Shown here piece by piece: positions 3,298 through 29,114 of a DNA stretch of 29,477 nt. Position numbers and translations under genes: made by a program. The notes below the pieces were generated by a model. It made no database searches, had not been told where the DNA came from, and was given only the letters and a program-made list of their open reading frames with translations. Position 1 is the first letter of the stretch, and each line of letters begins with the position of its first letter. Source of the DNA: a virus; the IMG/VR virus record IMGVR_UViG_3300009537_000121, positions 1 to 29,477 of that record. One strand, written 5' to 3'.

Positions 3298-3677
3298 TGG
3301 CACGGAGACACTGGCATCCTAAAGATACGGTCGATGCTCATTGGTATGACAAACATTGGGCATTGGCTCTCACGCCCGCGCCAGAGAGCCATTGGGCACA
3401 AAAGCACTTTGTCGGCCAGCACTGGCATGACACGCACTGGCTTGGCACCGAACCGCCGCTTATCGATGTCGGGGCGGCGATCTCGTGGACTCGTGGTGGT
3501 GTGGTTCCTGTGAGATACCTTGTAGGCCAGACGCGGAACGTCGTTCCTGTGGAAACCGTTGGCGCGTGGGACATTGGCGTTGTCCCAGTGAAGGAATATG
3601 TTGGACCAGCTAACGTGGTGCCTGTACGCGAGGCGCCCACCGAAACGCCGCGCGTTAAAGTGGTGAAAACGCAATGA
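3297..3677 (+). CDS. His-Trp-repeat protein with four VVPV motifs, 126 aa
   Basis: The ATG at 3297 overlaps the upstream TAA. The first 50 residues contain six His-Trp dyads plus one His-Phe (HWHPKD, DAHWYDKHW, ESHWAQKHF, QHWHDTHW). The second half, about residues 67-112, repeats the motif VVPV four times, each within a context like G-VVPV-x-x-x-VG. No signal peptide or membrane segment is present. I have seen short HW-rich repeats in other phage virion-region proteins but know no assigned function. Aromatic stacking, metal binding or membrane-interface insertion are guesses. The gene overlaps the glycosyltransferase that follows by ATGA. Confidence 0.75.
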   Translation: MARRHWHPKDTVDAHWYDKHWALALTPAPESHWAQKHFVGQHWHDTHWLGTEPPLIDVGAAISWTRGGVVPVRYLVGQTRNVVPVETVGAWDIGVVPVKEYVGPANVVPVREAPTETPRVKVVKTQ

Positions 3678-5556: not shown

Positions 5557-7818
5557 TTGGCGACTGTTCGTAGGCTACTGACCAACTTTTCGAAAGGTGA
5601 GTTGTCGCCACTCGTTGAGGGGCGCCCTGATCTGGCGGCGTACTTCGAGGGGTGTCGTACGCTAGAGAATTGGCTTGTGCTGCGCCAAGGCGGCGCCCGG
5701 TCGCGGCCTGGCACGCGCTTTGTCGCCGAAGTCAAACATTCTACCAAAGACACAATCTTGATCCCATTCCAGGCTAGCGTTGCTGCCTCCTACATGTTGG
5801 AGTTTGGTGATACTTACATTCGCTTCTACAAGGACAAAGCGCCGATTCTGTCTGGTGGTATCCCGGTAGAGATCGCATCTCCGTACACCGAAGCCCAGCT
5901 ACGTAACATACATTTCACACAGTCTGTGGACGTGCTGTTTCTGTTCCATCCTGATGTTCCACAACAAAAGTTGTCTAGGATTTCGGATACCAGCTGGACC
6001 ATTTTGCCAGCGGTCTACGACCCACCGCCTTCGTTCGAAGACGACACAGACATTTCGGGTGGCACTGTCACCCTGACGCCCGCCGCGACTACCGGCACTA
6101 GCGTAATCTTCACTGCTTCAGCGGCGGTTTTCTTGGCGGGCGACATCGGGCGCCAAATCATCTACGGATCGTCCTATGCCACCATTGTAGCATTCGGCGC
6201 GAGCGCCGGCGATACGGCTTCGCCGAACGACCATGTTCGGGCTGATATCTTAGCCACGTTTCCAGGCACCGGTCCGATCCCGGCGGGCGATTGGCTTCTG
6301 CGTTTGTCACCACAGGTGACGCTTGATCCGGACAAAAAGGAGCCTGTGGGCACTCAAGTTACGCTTGTAGCGGGCGGCAATGCATTTCGTGCCGCAGATG
6401 TTGGTAAATTTATCACAATTTACGGTGGTCTGGTCAAAATCACACAATTTGACTCGGTTACGCAAGTCAAGGGCGAGATCAAAAGTGTGATGGCCGGCAC
6501 CGACGATGCAAATCCAGCCGCGGCGCCTGCTGGTGCGTGGACTTTGGAGATAGAATCGTGGTCTACAACCAATGGTTTCCCTGCTACCGGCGAATTTTAT
6601 CAAGGTCGTCTTGGTCAAGCGCGCACTCCGAAGCAAAAAACAAGCTTTTGGCTATCACAATCGGATAATTTCGATGGTTACGCGGTGGGCGCCGAAGCAG
6701 ATCGTGCTTTGGAGTACACAATCGCAAGTCGGGCGCTGAATCAGCTAGAATGGATCGCTGATAACATAGATATGTTCATCGGTTCCGCTGGATCGGAGCA
6801 TCGCGTGACGTCTGGGCGCGAAAATGAGCCGTTGGGCGGTGACGTCACGCCTTTGGTGACGAGAATCACGGGACATGGTAGCGCCAGCATTCAACCTGTG
6901 GTCATTGGTCGCCGAACGATCTTCGTTGATCGTAGTAGGCGCAAAGTTTTGCTCATCGGCTTTGATCTCGAAGAGGACGGGTTCGACACACCCGAGATCA
7001 CGGGGTTGGCGGAACATATCACTGCAAGTGGTATCCGGCTTGGGCCATCAGCGTTCGCTACGCGACCTGATCCTCGGATTTACTATGTACGCGAGGACGG
7101 ACAAGCGATAACGCTAACCTATTTCAAGAATGAGAAAGTTGTTGGGTTCACTAGATTGACCACTGAAGGCACGTTTGAGTCGCATGGTGTCATTCCACAA
7201 GTGGCACCTAGTCCAGATCAAGTTTGGGCGCTCGTTAAGCGGACCATAAATGGTGTTACGAAGCGTTATGTAGAAGTTTTCGACGAGGACGCGAGCGAAC
7301 TGGCAGGGCGGGCGTGGACTTCCATCGAGACAGACTGTGCCAAAGTTTACGATCTCGCGGGTACGCCAACCACGGTCTTGACCGGCTTGGGTCACCTGGA
7401 AGGCAAAACCGTGGACGTTATCACTGATGGTTCGTATCGTGGAACCAAGGTGGTGGCATCGGCACAGATAACCTTGACGGAAGCGGCGTCGGAAACCGCC
7501 GAAGTTGGCTTGCATTTCGATGGCACATTGACTACGATGCGCCCAGCCGTCGAAGGAATGATGGTCGAAGGCTTGCCGCGCTCGTGGAAGAAGCTATGGG
7601 CGCGGGTTTTGAATTCAATGGGCGGCAAGCTCAATGGCATTGAGTTGGTTTACCCAACCGTGCCGTTGACGACACGCCCACTCTACACTGGCGATGTCGA
7701 AATCACAACCTACGCGGTCACTGACACAGATGGCGCTGTCACATTGCTTCGCGACAAGCCATATCCGATGACAGTGCTAGCTTTGTTTGGTGAAGTGGAG
7801 TTTGGCACCCTTGGCTAA
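5557..7818 (+). CDS. Tail tubular protein B-like nozzle protein (T7 gp12-like)
   Basis: The 753-aa protein compares with 794 aa for T7 gp12. Its N-terminus is diagnostic: NFSKGELSPLVEGRPDLA, GCRTLENWLVLRQGGA, RSRPGTRFVAEVKH, then LIPFQ and YMLEFGDTYIRFYKD, the conserved opening of podovirus nozzle proteins. The central section is beta-rich, as expected for a six-fold beta-propeller tube. The start is a rare TTG at 5557, placed immediately after the stop of the adaptor gene; translation from it gives the expected N-terminus, and no ATG lies close. It would form the tail tip below the adaptor ring. Confidence 0.9.
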   Translation: MATVRRLLTNFSKGELSPLVEGRPDLAAYFEGCRTLENWLVLRQGGARSRPGTRFVAEVKHSTKDTILIPFQASVAASYMLEFGDTYIRFYKDKAPILSGGIPVEIASPYTEAQLRNIHFTQSVDVLFLFHPDVPQQKLSRISDTSWTILPAVYDPPPSFEDDTDISGGTVTLTPAATTGTSVIFTASAAVFLAGDIGRQIIYGSSYATIVAFGASAGDTASPNDHVRADILATFPGTGPIPAGDWLLRLSPQVTLDPDKKEPVGTQVTLVAGGNAFRAADVGKFITIYGGLVKITQFDSVTQVKGEIKSVMAGTDDANPAAAPAGAWTLEIESWSTTNGFPATGEFYQGRLGQARTPKQKTSFWLSQSDNFDGYAVGAEADRALEYTIASRALNQLEWIADNIDMFIGSAGSEHRVTSGRENEPLGGDVTPLVTRITGHGSASIQPVVIGRRTIFVDRSRRKVLLIGFDLEEDGFDTPEITGLAEHITASGIRLGPSAFATRPDPRIYYVREDGQAITLTYFKNEKVVGFTRLTTEGTFESHGVIPQVAPSPDQVWALVKRTINGVTKRYVEVFDEDASELAGRAWTSIETDCAKVYDLAGTPTTVLTGLGHLEGKTVDVITDGSYRGTKVVASAQITLTEAASETAEVGLHFDGTLTTMRPAVEGMMVEGLPRSWKKLWARVLNSMGGKLNGIELVYPTVPLTTRPLYTGDVEITTYAVTDTDGAVTLLRDKPYPMTVLALFGEVEFGTLG

Positions 7819-10294: not shown

Positions 10295-13200
10295 TGTCTA
10301 CCGTACTTCCGTACACCGAGAAACAACGTCGCCTGCAAGAGCTGTCAGTTGATGACATCAATCAGACGTACCATGATGGTATCATCAATGGGGCGCAACG
10401 CAAACAGCTGTTGATTGAGAAGGCACACGCGACCACAGCAGGGCTGCTGGAGAAGCATGGCTACTTGAAGGCTATCTGGGCTGTGAACAGCAAGAATGTC
10501 ATGCACGGTTGGGACAACATTGTTGAGGCGGTTACATCCGACGTTGAGGATGAGGATTCTTTAAAAGAGATGTACTATGGCGGGTTGTTTTTGTTTGGCG
10601 CAGTCCAGATGTTCTTGGCGCCAATCAACGCAATTGAGGAAGTTAACGGGCAGGAAGTCGAGAACATGTTGTTGTGGGTCGGGGCGCCGCCCGGCCTAGC
10701 ACGCTTCGCTAATTTCGTTACACAACTTGGCAGCGCATTCATCCCGATGGGGACCGCTGCCAAAGGCTTCGCCAAAGGTGTGCAGAAAGCTGGCGAGCTA
10801 GTTGGTAAGGGCGTAGCCAAAGCTGAGACAGCAGTGCCAAAAGCGCAGCGTATCGCTGACTTGGTCATGTCGCGTGAGCAAGTCGTAGCACGCGATGCGT
10901 TGATCGAAGGATTGAGAGTCGAGGGCGTAGCTAACGCTGAAAGAAAGGTGTTGGATGCTGCGGAGGCCGTCGCCGCTGCGGAGCAACGTGCGGCATTGAA
11001 GGCGGAGCGAGCGGCCCGCCGCGAAGCGGAGCGGGTTAAGACTGAGGGGGTGCCGGTTGCTGAAGGCGTGTCGGACGACGTTTTTAAAGCTATGGCCAAT
11101 CGTTACTGGAAAGAGTCACAGGAACTCAAGTCTAAGATTAAAGCTTCGGCCCCAGGCTCCGCTGAAGAAGCCGCAGCGCGTGACGCCTTTGGAGAATGGC
11201 GCCAACAAGCTTGGGTGCGCGAATACGCACGATTGAAGGGCGAACGCGATACTGCGACTTACATAAAATTGTTTGATAAATCAGAGGCTAGCAAAGTGCC
11301 CGCCACCAAATTCGAGGCCGCCACCGAAGCTGGGCGGGCGTTAACTAGCGAATTCAAGCTACCAGCAAATCTTGCAGGCGCCAAGCCGCGCTACAATATT
11401 GGCGAAAAATCCTTCGAGCCGATTTTCGAGTCTGACCTCGATAAGGCATTGTACATAGTGGCGCAGACTAACAAATCGGTGCGCGATGCTGATTACATGC
11501 GGTTGCTGCAGCAACACTTTCCTGATATGACAGAAAACGCCATACGACGTTTGGGCTACGTTAATGTACGCGCCGCGCTTAAGCGTATTGCTGGTAGCGC
11601 TGAGCCTGGCATGATTAACATACCAGACCTGGGACTAGACGTCGCTAAGGCAGCGAAACCGCTAACTCAAACAGAGCTTGGCATTAGATTCGAGCGTGCC
11701 CGTGCCAAACTAATGCGTACCATATCACGGGGCCATGCTGAAGCAGAACTTCCAGACTTGCTAGCGCGATTCGGCATCGACCCAAGCATGGTCACTCGTG
11801 GTACGTTTAGCACCAAACAACTCTACGTGCATTTGAAGGCACTGGAGCCCGAGGTTGCGAAACTACATCAGCTCGCAAAAGCTGCGTTAACGGGTGACTA
11901 CGCCGACGGTGTCGCGTTCGCGAAGTATGCCACCGAGTTGTTTGGGACACATTTGCGTCATGAAGGTGCAGCACGAATTGTCTACGACAAAAAGTTTCTG
12001 GATCTACTGACCTACTGGGCGCCTGAGGCTGTCGCCCGCGGCGACATTGCCAACGCAATGAAAGTGTTCGCCGCTGACATTGTCAATCTCGCAGAGCGTG
12101 CTAAAGGCGCAGGCGAAGCTGGCACTAGCACGTTGGGCATGTTCGTGTTTGGTAATCAGCGAATGTTTACGACGCTTGGTAGCAAGGCATGGCCGGTGGC
12201 TCGCGAACTCTACGATAATTTGTTGTTAACATTCGCTTGGGCTCCCGCATTTGTTGGTAACTCCACCGCGTTAGCGGTTGAAGTATTGGAGCGCACCGCC
12301 GGAGGAATGTTTACTCTAGACAAGGCTCGCGGTGCGTTGGCTCGGGAAGGTCTTTATGAAATGAAGGGTATGGCCCTAGCGACGGGTGATGCCTTCAAAG
12401 CATTTTGGAATGTGATGAGGCATCATTTTGTACCGGGTGCTACGCGGTTCACGGAAATGGAGATGCGTAACGTTATTCCTGGGGCGTTGGGTACAACTGC
12501 GCGCACCCCGCGCGATATGACGATTGCAATGGACGAGCTTACGAAAGTCATCGCGAAGCGTGGTAACGCTTACGCTGACGCCCTTCGTGACAGCGAACGC
12601 TTGGCAAAGCCGGCCAATAAGGCGTCCTTTTTCGCGCGTCGTGTGCTCCATCCTACCGACGAAACTATGCTTCGTGGGCAACAGCTTGCTGAAACAATCG
12701 CGTTTCAGAATGCGCTTGGGCATTTTGGGAAAATTGCGACACGCGCTGCACAATGGGGACCGCTACATCTGCACTTTCCATTCTTTAAGAACATGATCAA
12801 TACCTTAAAATGGTCATGGTATCGCACACCTGGCTTGCAGCTTTTCCAGGCTAAGCTATATCGGGATATCCTAGCGGGGGGCGTTGAAGCAGATCGTGCT
12901 GTTGGCATGCTGACCATTTCCAATCTATGGGCTATGCTAGTCTACGATCTGGCTAAGGAAGGGTTCATCATGGGGCCGGGTCCAGTCGACCCCGCTTTGA
13001 ACGCGGCTTGGCGTGCCACGAATGAACCCTACGCTGTAAAGACTCCCGATGGTGGTCATATTCCTATCTCCAATATGGAGCCGGGTTCTACGCCGGTTGG
13101 TCTGATCGCCGCCTTCGTCGAAATCGCTGACTCGCTTGACGAAGCTACGCATCAGCAACTTGGCATGGCGATTCTGTACGCTGTGATGAATGCGTTTCTA

Positions 13201-17758: not shown

Positions 17759-18946
17759 TCATTTAAGAAACTCGATAGCAGTCTCGCTACCAACCGTCTT
17801 AGTTTTCAACGTACCGTCCTGTACTAGTGTAGAAACTAGCTTGTCGAAGTCTTCCGCCCCCATGCCCATATGTTTAAGCAACACTCTACGTGTGGTCAAC
17901 CCACCAATGTTTTGCATGTAGCGAATTAGTTTCGCGCGGCTTTGTTCGTACTGCGAGCTACCGCTCCACACCACCACGCGCTTGACCTCTGGAAGTTGTA
18001 ACTCGATTAGCTTTATGGCATGGGCCATTTGTTTCGCATCGACGACTAGGTCGTCACGTTGGGCCATTGATAACAAGAGTGCGATACGGAGGGCGGTAAC
18101 ATGGCAACGATGATAGAAGGCGTCGGTTTCAGGGTCGCGGGTGTCGCGACTCGATAGCGCTTCATACCACACATCATAAAGCTGTTGCGCATCGGGCGCA
18201 ACGGTGGCTTCGCCTTGTAAATTGCCAACGCGCTGCAAGTCGTGGATTAGATATTCGCGTAGCGCCCGCCGCTGTAACGTAGCCTGGGCATGTTTCCAAC
18301 CTGGGTTGTTCTTACGTCTGGTGTTTTCGACAACCCATATCAGTCTGCCTGTGAGTCCTCCGATTGCATCCTCAGGCAAGACTTTAAGATTATGTGGATC
18401 AGTTCCGCCAAGCAACACTGGATATAGATTATGGAGGCGTACCAAAGAGTCACGCACTGTAGTATGATCGTAGACCGTCGGGCACCCGTAGGTCCGTGTA
18501 AGAAAGATAACCATTTGAGACGCTCGTGTCCGCTCGTAGCTAAATAGATTAGCGACTTCATCAGCAAAGATTGCAACATCAGAACGGAGCTCCTCAACAA
18601 TTTTGTCCTCCTTCACTATTGACACTTTATGATTTAGGATCTTTATGAGTCCCTGGCTTGTCATTGAATCACGCATGATTCGGATGTCGGGGATCGCCTC
18701 CAATAACAAATCGCGACCGTGGTCCATCGCCACAGACTTGCGAACCTTGGCGCTCTCGGCGACGATGATAACGTACAGATTGGGGAATATTAATCCATAC
18801 TCCATGTCGAGGAACACTTTGCGGCGACTAGCACAGGCGAGTAGGCAAAGTCCGATCCAGCGATGTAGGGACTCAGGCGACTCCAAATCTGCCGTATAGT
18901 CTAGGTAGCCAGCAAGCCAGTCACCTAGCAAGCGCTTTTCTGGCAT
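17759..18946 (-). CDS. DUF3987-like phage primase/helicase ATPase, 395 aa
   Basis: The protein resembles DUF3987-type replication ATPases. N-terminal LGDWLAGYLDYTADLESPESLHRWIGL leads into YVIIVAESAKVRKS (residues 58-71), the P-loop position, and VAIFADEVANLF at 124-135 gives Walker B with D129-E130. LVRLHNLYPVLLGGTDP at 168-184 and GGLTGRLIWVVE at 197-207 are sensor and arginine-type segments of this family. Residues 335-395 look like a winged helix. The P-loop is altered: glycines of GxxxxGKS are replaced, giving A-E-S-A-K-V-R-K-S. It would unwind DNA for the split polymerase encoded just before it. Its ATG 18946 abuts the polymerase stop; it is the last leftward gene. Confidence 0.75.
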   Translation of the reverse strand: MPEKRLLGDWLAGYLDYTADLESPESLHRWIGLCLLACASRRKVFLDMEYGLIFPNLYVIIVAESAKVRKSVAMDHGRDLLLEAIPDIRIMRDSMTSQGLIKILNHKVSIVKEDKIVEELRSDVAIFADEVANLFSYERTRASQMVIFLTRTYGCPTVYDHTTVRDSLVRLHNLYPVLLGGTDPHNLKVLPEDAIGGLTGRLIWVVENTRRKNNPGWKHAQATLQRRALREYLIHDLQRVGNLQGEATVAPDAQQLYDVWYEALSSRDTRDPETDAFYHRCHVTALRIALLLSMAQRDDLVVDAKQMAHAIKLIELQLPEVKRVVVWSGSSQYEQSRAKLIRYMQNIGGLTTRRVLLKHMGMGAEDFDKLVSTLVQDGTLKTKTVGSETAIEFLK

Positions 18947-19858
18947 TTATAGTTTGTAATCTTTTAAATCATCGCCGCCCCATGTTGGACCAGTCTTGAA
19001 ATCAACTGGGATTATCATTGTCTCATCCTCGCGAACCTGGATTGGAGTCTCTGCGGTAGCGCGCCACGTCGTAGCGGCCCATCGAACTAAATCCGGATCG
19101 TTAGGTATGACCATGCCTCCGGCATCATGAACGTTTAGGCGAATGTCCATGCCTGACCATTGGATTGCTTGTGGTGATCGGGCGCCCGCGTCACGTAGCG
19201 CTCGCCAGCGATCCCAATTCTCCTTTCCATACCATGTCCACCATTGATCTCGCAGCGATTCGCTAGCGTCGTCACGAAACACGTTGCCGCATTTCACGAT
19301 AGTCCTGTTAAGCATGCTTGCTACCGTGCATTGCGGGAACGTCGCGTAGGCTACGCGAAGCAGGTCGTCGTTAAGAATGTCGTAGAAAATCTTGCGGAAG
19401 CGTACGGGTTTGGGCATCCACAACATGCGATCCTTGCGAATGCATTTCTCGATCCAAGCTTGGTAGTTGGTTTTGATCTCTGGAAACAACGTGTAGTAGA
19501 TTGCCTTGATTGCTTCGGCTTGCTTCTCGGGCAGACCAGTACGCAACGCGAAACGCGACGGCCCCTCGCCATAGTTTCCAGCATGGACCGCCCGCTTCGC
19601 GATCTCTCTTTCTTCGTCGCCCTTAACATAGGCATTGGAAGCCTTGCTCCTAAACAGCGGCTTGCCACTGTCCGGATTTACAGGCATAACTATGCTAGGC
19701 GTTTTCTGCACGACATCGGCGATCAGCTCGCACACCTTCAGGTGGACATCAACGCCTTCTTGGTACCATTGCTTGAGTTTAGGGACCGGGCCGCGCCAAG
19801 CCACCACTCTAGACTCCGCTTGATTGTAGTCTGCGAAAAGCCATACATTAACGAGCAT
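18947..19858 (-). CDS. DNA polymerase family A, C-terminal piece (motifs A, B and C)
   Basis: This 303-aa protein supplies the catalytic half missing from the gene at 20806-22551. From ATG 19858 it reads MLVNVWLFADYNQAESR: motif A with catalytic D10 and E15. Motif B is REIAKRAVHAGNYGEG (R84, K88, H92, Y96; the Phe/Tyr of the O helix is His). LLRVAYATFPQCTVASML carries the conserved Gln of the palm. Motif C is LNVHDAGGMVIP at about 241-252: catalytic D245 is kept but the usual Glu after it is Ala. Upstream in-frame GTG codons at 19891, 19882 and 19870 are alternative starts; ATG 19858 overlaps mazG by 11 nt and has GAAGG close by, at poor spacing. It must act with the other piece. Confidence 0.85.
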   Translation of the reverse strand: MLVNVWLFADYNQAESRVVAWRGPVPKLKQWYQEGVDVHLKVCELIADVVQKTPSIVMPVNPDSGKPLFRSKASNAYVKGDEEREIAKRAVHAGNYGEGPSRFALRTGLPEKQAEAIKAIYYTLFPEIKTNYQAWIEKCIRKDRMLWMPKPVRFRKIFYDILNDDLLRVAYATFPQCTVASMLNRTIVKCGNVFRDDASESLRDQWWTWYGKENWDRWRALRDAGARSPQAIQWSGMDIRLNVHDAGGMVIPNDPDLVRWAATTWRATAETPIQVREDETMIIPVDFKTGPTWGGDDLKDYKL

Positions 19859-20159
19859 CGCCTTCGCCACGAAGCGTGTCACGGAGCGCACGCGATTTCA
19901 GCTTTGCCAGATTGTGCCGGGCGACTTCGTTCAGAGACACGTTCAGATCGCTAGCGATAGCGGCGACGTACCATAGGCAGTCGCCTAGCTCGTCGACTAG
20001 CGCCATGCGATCGTAATGATTGTCTCGTATGATTTTCTTGACTTTGTTACATAATTCGCCAGCTTCGCCAGCCAGCCCTAACGCGGGATAGATAATCTTG
20101 TAGTTTTCTGGATAGACAGCGGTTTTGGCAGCGGCTCCTTGGTAGTCCCATAGGTTCAT
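19848..20159 (-). CDS. MazG-like nucleoside triphosphate pyrophosphohydrolase, 103 aa
   Basis: GLAGEAGELCNKVKKIIRD at residues 28-46 and DELGDCLWYVAAIASDL at 56-72 give the MazG-type metal site (E32, E35, E57, D60). The protein is one single MazG domain, as in phage versions. It hydrolyses (d)NTPs to monophosphates and PPi; phage MazG proteins are proposed to clean non-canonical nucleotides or shift host alarmone or nucleotide pools. ATG 20159 has GGAGG at 20170-20174, ten bases away, so the start is firm. It lies between the two polymerase pieces on the same strand and its 3' end overlaps the second by 11 nt. Confidence 0.85.
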   Translation of the reverse strand: MNLWDYQGAAAKTAVYPENYKIIYPALGLAGEAGELCNKVKKIIRDNHYDRMALVDELGDCLWYVAAIASDLNVSLNEVARHNLAKLKSRALRDTLRGEGDAR

Positions 20160-20187
20160 TGCGATATTTCCTCCAGAAATACAAGGT

Positions 20188-20217
20188 TACTGCATACGAC
20201 GGGATTTCGTAGCAGTA
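20188..20217 (-). promoter_or_regulatory. Strong inverted repeat upstream of mazG
   Basis: TACTGCATACGA (20188-20199) and TCGTAGCAGTA (20207-20217) pair over 11 bp with one bulged A and a 7-base loop. It lies in one of the few non-coding gaps, after the 43-aa gene and about 13 bases before the mazG ribosome site. There is no clean U-run after it on the minus strand, so it is not a classic terminator; an RNA-processing, attenuation or operator site is possible. Confidence 0.6.
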
Positions 20218-20227
20218 GGGGCGTGTA

Positions 20228-20359
20228 TTATTCATTTCGTTTTGGCGCGTCGCGCCATCTTTCGCATAACACGTAATGGCATACCACTTGCCAAGGCGCG
20301 TATAGCAAAATGTCGAGCGAAGTTATGCGTCGGCCACAACGGCCACATATTTTTATCAT
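20228..20359 (-). CDS. 43-aa cysteine-pair (zinc-knuckle-like) miniprotein
   Basis: ATG 20359 lies four bases past the stop of the DUF1599-like gene and gives a 43-residue product beginning MIKICGRCGRRI. It has C5-x2-C8 and a second cysteine set at C27 and C32, so four cysteines could bind zinc. No convincing ribosome site is seen; reinitiation after the upstream stop is likely. The reading frame ends at TAA 20228-20230, just before the hairpin. It is too short for certainty, and the function is unknown. Confidence 0.5.
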   Translation of the reverse strand: MIKICGRCGRRITSLDILLYAPWQVVCHYVLCERWRDAPKRNE

Positions 20360-20363
20360 TGGT

Positions 20364-20909
20364 TCATTGTTTTACTGGAGTCGATCCGAAGGCAGTGCGC
20401 TCTAGGCGAGCGTGGTTGTCTGCGTTCATGCATCGGATGATGTTCATGTAGACTGCGATGTCTGCCAGGGATTCATCGGACGGGCGACGTCCAACATTAA
20501 GATCCCACATGATACGGTCGAAGTGTTTCAGCGCATATAGTATGGCGACTGCGTCTGGGCTGTAATGTGGGAAGCTAGGATACAAACGCATGATCGCGGC
20601 GCCACGTTCAAAGTTACCCAACGGATCACCACCACCAGCGTAGCCTGCATTCTTCTCCGAATGTAAGGCTAGCTGTTTCAGTGTTAGGTCCGCGAACATC
20701 GGATGTCCATGTGGGAACAGCTCACGTAACAGCTGTGGAAGTGACTCAATTGTCATTTGGTCGGATAGCTCTTCCAGCTTCCTGTGGTTTTGTGCAAGGC
20801 GTTCTTTAACCTGGAAGGAAGAGAGATCGGGCAATGCCTTGTCTTGGGAGATTCTGGAGGTTTGCGCCCGAGCCGAGGATACTTTCCGACGACGATAGCC
20901 GCGTGCCAT
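20364..20909 (-). CDS. DUF1599-like protein (nucleotide-modification-associated type), 181 aa
   Basis: Conserved-looking elements lie at residues 83-154: HSEKNAGYAGGGDPLGNFERGA (K86, N87, Y90; GDPLGNF 94-100), ALKHFDRIMW, and DESLADIAVYMNII (E147, D150, Y154). This matches the DUF1599 pattern, a family linked by comparative genomics to nucleotide or base modification in phages; its reaction is not settled. Residues 1-34 are Arg/Ser-rich and are read out of frame over the end of the polymerase N-terminal gene. The start is nonetheless firm, because a full AGGAGG precedes ATG 20909. The neighbours mazG and polymerase suggest a nucleotide-pool role. Confidence 0.7.
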   Translation of the reverse strand: MARGYRRRKVSSARAQTSRISQDKALPDLSSFQVKERLAQNHRKLEELSDQMTIESLPQLLRELFPHGHPMFADLTLKQLALHSEKNAGYAGGGDPLGNFERGAAIMRLYPSFPHYSPDAVAILYALKHFDRIMWDLNVGRRPSDESLADIAVYMNIIRCMNADNHARLERTAFGSTPVKQ

Positions 20910-22551
20910 TTGTTCCTCCTATCTTGTAGTGACAGTGAATGTGATTCTGCTCATCGAGCGGTTGCTCCAGCACATCGTTGATCAAATCTTGGAGTTGTTT
21001 CATCTTGATGAATTTGTGTAGCGTAGGATCTGCGTGCTTGGTTGCGAGCATTTGCAATGTATCTTTGTCGCCAGTGGGCTTGCCAGTTTGGCGATTTAGC
21101 CGTGGTGCGTAGCGTTTGACTTTGTAGAGGAAATGCTGGAGTTGTTGTGGTGAGGCTAGGTTTAGGACGCCCGGGCGCGGCTTTGCGCCTTTGGGAGCCT
21201 TGGTTATGACTTCCAATCCAATCATTGTTCGCAATTCTTTGCGTAGGGTGTCAATGCTAGCTAACGTGTCATCTCGTGCAGCGGCGCGCCGGGCGATGTC
21301 AATTAGCACGCCCTGCCATTCCATATACAAAGTGTGCTCAAATTGCTCTAAGTACTGCTCGACGTAGGTTTGCCACAAGTCGGTGGTTTGCAATTCGGTG
21401 CGCATCTTCATTGCGCACTCGTAAGTCACCATCACGTCCAGTGCGTTGTAACGCCAGAAAACCTCTTCACCAAATTCGGGGCGCCAATGACGCCCCTCGT
21501 CTTTGTAGAACGGCTGATCAGTGTATTGACTAACAATGAAAGCTAGGCCGTGTCCTGGATTGTCGATGTCTCGCTTGCGCTTCGACCATTCGTCGAAAAC
21601 GCCACCAAAGTCAGGGTATAGACAATGATGCATATGCATGGTGTCCATCCCAAGTGGTGTGGGATAGATCCCATAGATCCACGATTTGATCCACTCATAG
21701 CTTGCGTTCTGCGCTATCTTTTTTACCTTTGGATTTTGTAGCAGCGCGCACCACAATTTCCACAGGGCCGCCTCTTCCTCCAACGTCCAATACCGAGAGC
21801 TTCCAACACGACTCAAAGGCACACACAATGCTTCCGTAGCGCTCCAACCAACGCCGAGGCATGTTATGTGTGATCGCCCCTCGTAGTCTATAGATACTTC
21901 CTCTTGCTCGTTTGCTTCCAGCAAGTACTCTCTGGCTGTTTTGAATGATGGTCCAACTATCGCCTGACGAGGTGTCAGTGACATTGCGGGCGACAATGAT
22001 TGTGTGACAGCCCGAGGGACATCTATGTATTTGAATATCGGTAGCCATTTCCATTGGCCGCGGATGAACGAGGCTGGATGCATGGCGGCTACGCATTTTT
22101 GTTTTCTCCCTGATGGGCATGCGATTTCGAATATGGAACCGCGCCACTTTGTGATGCTCCATTTTGATGACGCCCATTTCTGCGTTCTAGACTTAAATGG
22201 CCCAACGTAACCTTCCATTAACAACACGAGAGTTTGGGCGCCCATCACAAGCAAACAATTTGGTTTTACTTCGTCGAGCTCCTGAAATACACGCTGCCTT
22301 TCAGCCTCAAGTATTTCCTTTGGAATAGCATAAAGATCGTTATCGTCCACAAAGAATTCGACGAGATTCGTAACATAGACTTGCGTACGGCCAACTTTGG
22401 CAGACGTCAATGCTTCGTTGAAAATCTTGCCAGACGGCCCAACGAATGGAATGCCATTGGCGATCTCTTGTTTTGCTGGGGCCATGCCTATGGCGGCGAG
22501 GCGCGCGTTGCGGGGGCCGCTAGCGCGGACACGTAGGTTAGTGTGGATCAT
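20806..22551 (-). CDS. DNA polymerase family A, N-terminal piece: UDG-like, 3'-5' exonuclease and first polymerase motifs
   Basis: The 581-aa protein has three parts. Residues 15-180 resemble a family 4-type uracil-DNA glycosylase (GMAPAKQE 22-29, PFVGPSG 35-41, AAMHPASFIRG 155-165), but the iron-sulphur cysteines are not evident. Residues 215-385 are a DnaQ-like proofreading exonuclease: Exo I with D222 and E224, QNASYEW at 281-287 (Glu for the usual Asp), Exo III with Y368 and D372. Residues 400-581 start the polymerase: GVLNLASPQQLQHFLY, TGDKDTLQML, TRLSSSES at 550-557 and NLQNLP at 564-569. It stops after ARSLFLPG, just before motif A, which is encoded at 18947-19858. UDG-PolA fusions are known in phages; the split is the odd feature. 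ATG 22551 is the first start after an in-frame stop. Confidence 0.88.
   Translation of the reverse strand: MIHTNLRVRASGPRNARLAAIGMAPAKQEIANGIPFVGPSGKIFNEALTSAKVGRTQVYVTNLVEFFVDDNDLYAIPKEILEAERQRVFQELDEVKPNCLLVMGAQTLVLLMEGYVGPFKSRTQKWASSKWSITKWRGSIFEIACPSGRKQKCVAAMHPASFIRGQWKWLPIFKYIDVPRAVTQSLSPAMSLTPRQAIVGPSFKTAREYLLEANEQEEVSIDYEGRSHITCLGVGWSATEALCVPLSRVGSSRYWTLEEEAALWKLWCALLQNPKVKKIAQNASYEWIKSWIYGIYPTPLGMDTMHMHHCLYPDFGGVFDEWSKRKRDIDNPGHGLAFIVSQYTDQPFYKDEGRHWRPEFGEEVFWRYNALDVMVTYECAMKMRTELQTTDLWQTYVEQYLEQFEHTLYMEWQGVLIDIARRAAARDDTLASIDTLRKELRTMIGLEVITKAPKGAKPRPGVLNLASPQQLQHFLYKVKRYAPRLNRQTGKPTGDKDTLQMLATKHADPTLHKFIKMKQLQDLINDVLEQPLDEQNHIHCHYKIGGTNGTRLSSSESILGSGANLQNLPRQGIARSLFLPG
20915..20920 (-). 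promoter_or_regulatory. Consensus ribosome site AGGAGG for the DUF1599-like gene
   Basis: AGGAGG five bases before ATG 20909. It is the best Shine-Dalgarno noticed in the window and lies inside the polymerase reading frame, which decides the start and shows the 104-nt overlap is probably real. Confidence 0.8.
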
Positions 22552-27010: not shown

Positions 27011-27237
27011 GGACCATCCTTGCTGATCCTATCAGCAGTGGCGCGGTCGATCCATTCGCCCATGAACAGCGTCACATACACTGCTTTGCCACAGCCGGCG
27101 CAGAATCTGTCACGCTGCATGAGTTGCGCCCCGCACTCACAGCGCGGATTCTCTACGAGGCGGGCGCCATCCTTCGAGCAGAATTTCTCAGTGTCAATGG
27201 ACATCGTCGCGTTGTAACACTTGATGCATGTTTTCAT
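27007..27237 (-). CDS. Double zinc-ribbon protein, 76 aa
   Basis: TCIKC at residues 3-7, FC at 19-20, CECG at 33-36 and CAGCG at 46-50 supply seven cysteines for one or two zinc sites. CSKDGARLVENPRCECG followed by RFCAGCGK is a typical zinc-ribbon pair. It is coupled to the SprT-SNF2 gene by ATGA. Bacterial SprT proteins carry a zinc ribbon after the protease, which the fused gene lacks; this neighbour might act in its place, but that is only a suggestion. Confidence 0.7.
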   Translation of the reverse strand: MKTCIKCYNATMSIDTEKFCSKDGARLVENPRCECGAQLMQRDRFCAGCGKAVYVTLFMGEWIDRATADRISKDGP

Positions 27238-29114
27238 TTGTTCACCGCCTTGTCAATGGATTTTTGCTTCTTGATGGTTAGCTTGGCCTTGTACGTGTCC
27301 AAGCTATCCTCGAACACTAGATGTTGGATCAGCATTGACTTGGCGCCGGTTTCGCCGCGACCTATGCCATGCGCGCGATCTTCCGCCTGGGTCATGATGC
27401 CGGGGACCCAATCCTCTTCAACGAATATGACAGTGGAGGAACCTTGCAAGCTGTAACCTTGTGCGAGAGAAACGCCCGCAACGAACAGTCTGCAATCGTC
27501 ATCATTGTTGAAACGATCACTAGCTTGCTGCGTCGCAGACGCTTGGTCACCAGTGCCGCCAAGCAACAACACACTGTTTGGTTTGAAACGATCAGCTATC
27601 GCTGTCAGAACATCGCGATGATGTCCGAACACGATCACCTTCTCCCGTGCCTCTAGCGCATTTTCGATGTGTTCGTAGATCATCGACAACTTGGCGCGTG
27701 CGATGCGATGCGCGATCTTCGCCATTTCCTCAAACGCATAGCGTCGCGTCTGCGTTAGCTCTTCGATGATGGACTGCCAATCGAGGTCGTCGCCCGCGAC
27801 GTCGCCTTCGTTTTTGATCGCATTGATTAGCGCCACTGCCTTAGAGTCAGGCCCACCCTGCCATGTCTGGAACAGCTTCTTCTCTTCTTCGATTAACGCC
27901 CGTGTCGCATCGTCGACTTCAAACTCCACGACTTGACGACGCTTCTTAGGTAGCTCCGTCAAGACATCCTTTTTGATTCGTCGGAGCATAATAGTGCTTC
28001 GCAGAATTGAATTAAGCCGTGGAAGATTTCGTCCAAATTTTGTGTTGCCTCTAGCTCCATACGTAGCTTCGAAGCTTGCGTAGGTTGGCCAATTCTCACG
28101 GTCAAGGTAGTGAATGAGTGGGAACAACTCGTAAGGATAGTTAACAATTGGTGTACCTGTGATGATGATAGATTTGTCACCCGATATTGCATAGCAAGCT
28201 TCGCTCCGCTTCGCTGACGGATTCTTTAGGTAGTGACCTTCATCGAAAATCACCAGGCCCCAACGGCGTGTTTTTAGTGCAGCCGCCCACTTGACGGCCG
28301 CCTCATAATTCATGATAACGTAGTCGCCAAACGTGTAGAGTTTGGTGTAGGCTAGCTCTACGTCGAATGGATGCACGCAGAATTGCTCAAGATGGCGTTT
28401 CCAGATTAGCTTGGCGTTGTTTGGACACACAACCAAGATTGACTCTGGTTTGGCTACGTTAATGTAGCCCATGACTTCCACAGTCTTGCCAAGACCCATC
28501 TCATCAGCTAACAGAATGTTGCGTCCGTTGCGTAGCATCCATCGAATGCCATCTAGCTGAAATTGCATTATGTGTACTTTGTGTGCTGCGCAACCATTGT
28601 CTTGTGTGTATCCCTCGCAAGTGGGGTCGCCAACATGTGGCGGCCACGGGATTGCTAGCGCATCGTCATAAATCAAGGCTGGATTGTCATGCGCGAAGCG
28701 CTCTATCGCGTCGGTTATGGCACGGGCTATGTCTGGAGTGAAGTCACTGATTTCATACATTTGTCCAGCGGGCAACGCGCGTGTCATGCCAAGCGCGACG
28801 GCCGCCGCAGTCCAGTGTGGACCATGTTGTTGCGGCTCGGGCCCGATTAGCATGTGCGCTAGCTCATGCACCACAGTACCAGCTAGCTGCAACGCGCTCT
28901 CACGTTGTGTCACAACCATCTCATTGTCGGCGTGTCGCGCCTGCCCGCGTAGGCTAGGGTGAATCCAATCACTGTAGCGCAAGCTTGCGTTTGTCAGGCG
29001 AATGGCTGAAAACTTCTCGTCAAGTTGAATGCGCGTTACCACGGCTTGCTTGATGCAAGCGCTGAAGCGTTCGAGGTCGCCGACATTGGTGATGTTGGCT
29101 TTGTGGTTAATCAT
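27234..29114 (-). CDS. Fusion of SprT-like zinc protease domain and SNF2 helicase, 626 aa
   Basis: Residues 1 to about 125 contain VVHELAHMLIGP with the third ligand in QHGPHW: H83, E84, H87 and H97, the HExxH...HGPxW/F pattern of SprT/SPRTN proteases. Residues 180-600 are a full SNF2 ATPase: LLADEMGLGKT (201-211), LVVCPNN, FDEGHYLKN (290-298), IITGTP (317-322), VIVFGHHRDVL, GVSLAQGYSLQ and QAEDRAHGIGR (576-586). In motif VI the usual HRIGQ is HGIGR, so the second arginine is displaced. SNF2 motors move along DNA and SPRTN cuts proteins cross-linked to DNA. Joined, they could strip and degrade DNA-bound proteins. The role is inferred. Confidence 0.85.
   Translation of the reverse strand: MINHKANITNVGDLERFSACIKQAVVTRIQLDEKFSAIRLTNASLRYSDWIHPSLRGQARHADNEMVVTQRESALQLAGTVVHELAHMLIGPEPQQHGPHWTAAAVALGMTRALPAGQMYEISDFTPDIARAITDAIERFAHDNPALIYDDALAIPWPPHVGDPTCEGYTQDNGCAAHKVHIMQFQLDGIRWMLRNGRNILLADEMGLGKTVEVMGYINVAKPESILVVCPNNAKLIWKRHLEQFCVHPFDVELAYTKLYTFGDYVIMNYEAAVKWAAALKTRRWGLVIFDEGHYLKNPSAKRSEACYAISGDKSIIITGTPIVNYPYELFPLIHYLDRENWPTYASFEATYGARGNTKFGRNLPRLNSILRSTIMLRRIKKDVLTELPKKRRQVVEFEVDDATRALIEEEKKLFQTWQGGPDSKAVALINAIKNEGDVAGDDLDWQSIIEELTQTRRYAFEEMAKIAHRIARAKLSMIYEHIENALEAREKVIVFGHHRDVLTAIADRFKPNSVLLLGGTGDQASATQQASDRFNNDDDCRLFVAGVSLAQGYSLQGSSTVIFVEEDWVPGIMTQAEDRAHGIGRGETGAKSMLIQHLVFEDSLDTYKAKLTIKKQKSIDKAVNK

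Follow-up and report, generated by a model that had tools for sequence, protein, structure and literature searches.

A phage family A DNA polymerase divided before motif A, probably a two-chain enzyme

We analysed a 29,477-nucleotide stretch of viral DNA (IMG/VR record IMGVR_UViG_3300009537_000121, positions 1 to 29,477; hereafter the window), in which a sequence-only reading had claimed that a family A DNA polymerase at 18947-22551 is split in two. The split is real. The polymerase lies in two minus-strand open reading frames (ORFs), at 20806-22551 and 18947-19858, whose coordinates and content we rechecked; Pfam and PHROG 17 matches and recurrence in three further phages bear it out. The pieces very likely form one replicative polymerase whose two chains are translated separately and associate non-covalently, with a split that was probably born of an insertion. 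The enzyme is thus very probably a two-part one rather than the product of a broken gene or an intron, as judged from five features: the split is conserved, the reading frames overlap at translational starts and stops, no intron or intein is found, both pieces are under purifying selection, and parallel splits exist.

Two pieces of one polymerase

The N-terminal piece (N-piece; 581 amino acids, 20806-22551, minus strand) contains a UDG-like domain, a 3′-5′ exonuclease domain, the thumb and the first part of the palm. It ends in ...NLQNLPRQGIARSLFLPG before the stop codon (also given as ...GTNGTRLSSSESILGSGANLQNLPRQGIARSLFLPG). The C-terminal piece (C-piece; about 303 amino acids from its ATG, 18947-19858, minus strand) contains the fingers and palm with motif A (ADYNQAESR), motif B/O-helix (R-x3-K...NYG) and motif C (VHDA), and begins MLVNVWLFADYNQAESR (also given as MLVNVWLFADYNQ). 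In Pfam, the N-piece matched UDG (E 5.6e-15), the exonuclease profile exo1 and positions 30-133 of the DNA_pol_A profile, with further matches to UDG_fam4 (3.8e-16) and to UDG and Klenow entries in PDB. The C-piece matched DNA_pol_A, with its best stretch at profile positions 204-320, and aligned to Taq at WLLVALDYSQIELR. A UDG superfamily domain at the N-terminus, fused to exonuclease and polymerase domains, characterizes the UDG-PolA phage polymerases; Pfam, UDG_fam4 and our tree all place the enzyme there.

The hallmarks of family A are present: the motif A Asp, the R...K...YG of the O-helix, the motif C Asp and the TGR/NLQN region. Invariant residues are D11, R85, K89, H245 and D246 in the C-piece and R551, N564, Q566 and N567 (TGR/NLQN region) in the N-piece. 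The claim that the two pieces supply every expected motif once holds, with two departures from the usual form. Although the exonuclease residues D222 and E224 (D-x-E) and Y368 and D372 (Y-x3-D) are present, the exo II position is E286, and all four split relatives described below have N-x3-E rather than N-x3-D at this motif. Motif C is HDA in the split clade and HDS in one member (L014). We also observed that the UDG motif in the split relatives is GMAP (GMSP in L014) instead of GEAP. With Glu at exo II and GMAP or GMSP, the enzyme may differ from the norm in proofreading and in its glycosylase function.

The proposal that the break falls cleanly before motif A, with nothing missing, was borne out by alignment to unsplit relatives. 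Since the N-piece and C-piece match positions 479-1002 and 1007-1237 of a single DNA polymerase model (PHROG 17, phrog_17), and these ranges adjoin, the pieces abut and nothing is lost. The N-piece runs on for 3 residues past the conserved F in LFxP before it stops, and the motif-A Asp comes 9 residues after the start of the C-piece. When the pieces are joined, F and Asp are 13 residues apart; this spacing is 12-13 in unsplit Mel-JY34, ctMlz233, LS06, L016, HTVC033P and HMO-2011. As the joined pieces show the spacing of unsplit relatives, nothing is missing.

The true start of the C-piece is probably the ATG at 19858, which overlaps the stop of the preceding MazG gene by 11 nt. Possible alternatives are in-frame GTG codons extending to 19891, where the longest frame begins. 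A scan of bacterial and archaeal genomes with the N-piece found no relative.

Recurrence of the split and parallel cases

The search for phages with the same split, which the sequence-only reading had proposed as a check, revealed three more in IMG/VR: L006 (recovered again from another metagenome as L011), L007 and L014. Since the split recurs in contigs from other metagenomes, neither chance nor faulty assembly accounts for it, and we rejected the assembly error raised as a possible objection. In four independent contigs, the coding region is divided into two ORFs with nothing missing, from which we infer that two chains are translated. The break is at the same residues throughout, as the N-pieces end LFLPG (window), LFLPS (L006), LFLP (L007) and LFLPS (L014), and the C-pieces start 9-12 residues before the motif-A Asp. 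Identity among the four is 61-66% for the N-piece and 51-70% for the C-piece. Each of the four C-piece starts overlaps the stop codon of the gene before it (window, ATG..TAA; L006, ATGTCATTAG; L007, ATGA; L014, GTGA), and in L007 an in-frame TAG lies just upstream of this start. Both pieces are under protein constraint in this clade, with pN/pS values of 0.2-0.4 and matching codon-position patterns; because dS is saturated, omega is only qualitative here.

A split family A polymerase has been published for the OM43 phages MEP401 and MEP402 (Zobellviridae), in which the authors suspected an intron (PMC10580990). As in the window, one ORF encodes the exonuclease and the first part of the polymerase and a second encodes the rest, with a small gene between them. 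Unlike the window, these phages have no UDG domain, belong to another major clade and carry an unrelated spacer gene. The N-piece ends TLFLSRYGE and the C-piece starts MILNAD, placing the break in the same segment between F and motif A, 3-4 residues later. We fetched the 80 best of 430 matching MEP401-type loci; all 74 IMG/VR contigs with both pieces visible are split at this point, with spacers of 147-459 nt. Omega of the pieces was 0.07-0.12 for MEP401/402. Among annotated MEP401-type relatives, the two genes of Alcaligenes phage QDWS535 meet at TAATG with no spacer, while the spacer holds a type II DHFR gene in ctOsX528 and 3.6 kb of other genes in ct2os315. In ctOsX528 (L020, about 3489-3520), an apparent A5 homopolymer frameshift occurs at the start of the C-piece, such that a one-base shift is needed to read motif A; this could be a sequencing error or a true frameshift, and we gave it no weight.

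The tree placed the four window-type sequences in a 100/100 clade inside the UDG-PolA enzymes, which also include whole genes. The MEP401-type sequences form their own 100/100 clade in the other main group, with the whole genes of HTVC033P and HMO-2011 outside it. Because the two types lie in different clades, each group with whole relatives, independent origins are the best reading of their splits before motif A. That reading takes whole genes to be ancestral, an assumption supported by the many unsplit relatives.

ICP2-like Vibrio phages (GenBank records, of which HQ641345 annotates a join) resemble the window in having two chains, but their break lies just after NLQN, about 10-15 residues earlier, they have no UDG domain, and some isolates carry an HNH endonuclease gene between the pieces. 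This gene is at the break in ICP2, and another five isolates match across the entire region. MJW has a different HNH there, 47% identical to the HNH of the phiL7 polymerase gene. Saratov-12, Saratov-15, Rostov-5342 and ICP2_2013_A_Haiti lack the insert but still have TAA, a ribosome-binding site and ATG; 9 nt separate the stop from the start, which are in the same frame. Since the insert-free isolates retain these signals, splicing is strongly disfavoured in ICP2-like phages. Omega of the pieces was 0.05-0.10 for ICP2/Haiti. The ICP2-like loci (L026, L027, L116, L117, L118 and L120) thus include forms with the insert, with a different insert and with none, a natural experiment.

Vibrio phage VS-ABTNL-3 is also broken close to the NLQN loop, and a 184-amino-acid gene separates its pieces; in Kuura and ctLwi270 the break is in or after the exonuclease domain. 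In ctLwi270 (MW202554; L119, 1942-2139), which is broken after that domain, an NrdR-type zinc-ribbon mini-gene separates the UDG-PolA halves.

The sequence-only reading had cited splits only for family B. The T4-type precedent stands: the split family B gp43 (43A/43B) of the T4-related phages 25 and 44RR is reported to co-purify and to be active, and a split NrdA is functional (PMC2988022). Like the window, 43A/43B is a phage replicative polymerase in two chains; it differs in its family and in having intercistronic untranslated sequence or a Seg endonuclease at the break. For family A, MEP401/402 had already supplied an example.

Spacer genes and alternative explanations

Three ORFs, all on the minus strand, fill the window spacer. 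The first, a 181-amino-acid ORF (20364-20909), overlaps the end of the N-piece with its first ~35 codons (~104 nt). Its orthologues in L006 (47% identity) and L014 (46%) occupy the equivalent position. We found no match for it in Pfam, PHROGs, NCBIfam or PDB, leaving its earlier DUF1599-like label without support. Next is a 43-amino-acid CxxC ORF (20228-20359), for which we found a 33-amino-acid match (45%) after the primase gene in L006. The third, a nucleoside triphosphate pyrophosphohydrolase gene (19848-20159), was correctly called MazG-like (Pfam MazG, 1.1e-10; phrog_229, 4.9e-36). A hairpin noted in the spacer folds no more strongly than shuffled sequence (z = +0.37) and is not in the terminator list, so that it no longer counts as a signal. 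The earlier statement that no homing endonuclease lies between the pieces was correct for the window spacer.

Small cysteine-rich CxxC ORFs (34-52 amino acids) also lie directly before the C-piece in L007 (9755-10043) and L006 (about 10615-10715) and are possibly related to each other. Downstream of the window polymerase, directly after the C-piece, is a DUF3987 primase/helicase-like gene (17759-18946, minus strand; Pfam DUF3987, 3.8e-11; phrog_14296). Elsewhere, the window encodes a SNF2-type helicase (27234-29114) whose N-terminal part has a weak SprT-like match.

One alternative, compatible with a two-chain enzyme, is that the layout itself is selected, so that MazG and the 181-amino-acid protein, as dNTP-cleaning proteins, are made between the two chains and at a set ratio to them, perhaps in one complex. 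We consider this improbable. The 181-amino-acid gene followed by MazG occurs in this order in three of the four split relatives, L006 and L014 having retained both, and the type II DHFR of the ctOsX528 spacer and the NrdR-type zinc ribbon of ctLwi270 would fit the idea. However, L007 lacks both genes, other spacers are empty or unrelated, and the two MazG versions share just 32% identity. The sequence-only reading had likewise placed nucleotide-handling partners in the middle of a two-chain enzyme; the two chains are well supported by the sequences, but the partners are no fixed unit, as L007 has only two CxxC mini-ORFs and other spacers contain DHFR, a gene of unknown function, 3.6 kb of genes or nothing.

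The pieces could instead be remnants of a broken polymerase gene in a phage that uses a host polymerase or another one. The change of exo II Asp to Glu in the clade, HDA at motif C and a divergent O-helix in L007 would be expected of decay. Against this, both pieces are open and constrained across deep divergence, and the catalytic Asp and the O-helix R and K are invariant. Moreover, neither L006 nor L007, each a 45-kb contig, contains another family A or B polymerase, and 74 of 74 assessable MEP401-type contigs keep both pieces. We therefore regard a broken gene as very unlikely.

Equally unlikely is that splicing removes the spacer as an RNA intron, whether of group I, group II or a new type, to give one full-length polymerase. 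There are phage family A polymerases with a group I intron near this site (SPO1 and the phiL7 region), and an intron was the suggestion made for MEP401 (PMC10580990). The group I intron of SPO1 polA interrupts its gene near the region of the window break, but is ~25 residues upstream, is spliced and is detectable by Rfam. Rfam searches found no intron in the window, L005-L007, or the MEP401-type or ICP2-type loci, although the same method recovered the SPO1 intron (E 0.0012) as a positive control. The spacers are mainly coding, with start/stop overlaps at their junctions; in L007, the 281-nt spacer is 87% covered by ORFs of at least 25 amino acids, and its two small CxxC ORFs are chained by overlaps. 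The intervening stretch ranges from -1 to 3598 nt, the two-gene form exists with no spacer in QDWS535, and the in-frame TAG ahead of the L007 C-piece start also argues against splicing. A split intein ligating the halves after translation, as known in phage polymerases such as PolB of MIJ3 (PMC6892783), is already excluded by the sequence, since the broken ends carry no extra residues, abut polymerase sequence and leave no room for intein halves.

Origin and meaning of the split

A two-chain enzyme accommodates these data. Chain 1 would consist of the UDG-like domain, the exonuclease domain, the thumb and the initial strands of the palm; chain 2, beginning just before the motif-A strand, would bring both catalytic aspartates and the fingers. 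Both would be expressed from one minus-strand gene cluster. Given the overlap between the start of chain 2 and the stop codon just before it, translation of chain 2 is probably coupled to that of the preceding gene. The two chains would then assemble into an active polymerase.

Unsplit UDG-PolA enzymes (Microcystis phage Mel-JY34, ctMlz233 and Desulfofustis phage LS06) have the same domain order and are followed by the same DUF3987 gene, but their polymerase is one gene. This neighbour follows the whole polymerase gene in the unsplit relatives L002, L003, L004 and L016. Because the same gene follows both the C-piece and the whole polymerase gene, the break arose in place. It probably began as an insertion, most likely of homing-endonuclease type, in the conserved coding region of the active site, as in ICP2-like phages, with ordinary phage genes later taking the place of the insert. 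In L014, an HNH endonuclease gene (6002-6340) lies directly after the C-piece and overlaps its end; this gene and the ICP2 series make a homing-endonuclease origin plausible for the window clade.

Three observations weigh against the two-chain reading and its proposed origin. We found no homing endonuclease at the break in the spacers of the window, L006 or L007; the ribosome-binding site of the window C-piece is weak; and AlphaFold2 models of the single pieces, built from alignments of four sequences, were too poor to be useful (pLDDT 46 and 49).

Since MEP401 had already provided a published family A split, the window polymerase is a further variant, from a different clade and with a UDG domain, and its spacer genes are interchangeable with others. 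More tentatively, the segment before motif A may be a permissive, reused division point, and two-subunit family A replicases a stable, selected form with at least two origins there and a larger number close by, persisting after loss of the mobile element, while nucleotide-metabolism genes use the gap as a place to settle; this is possible, though we hold it with less confidence than the two-chain enzyme itself. Because ICP2 isolates exist both with the endonuclease and without it, and QDWS535 has no spacer, the choice between intron and two chains that arose with MEP401 can be tested directly. Activity of the pairs would mean that a family A polymerase can be divided next to its active site and still replicate a phage genome. 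Such pairs would offer engineers naturally split polymerases, and would allow a test of how a single gene becomes a two-subunit enzyme through mobile elements.

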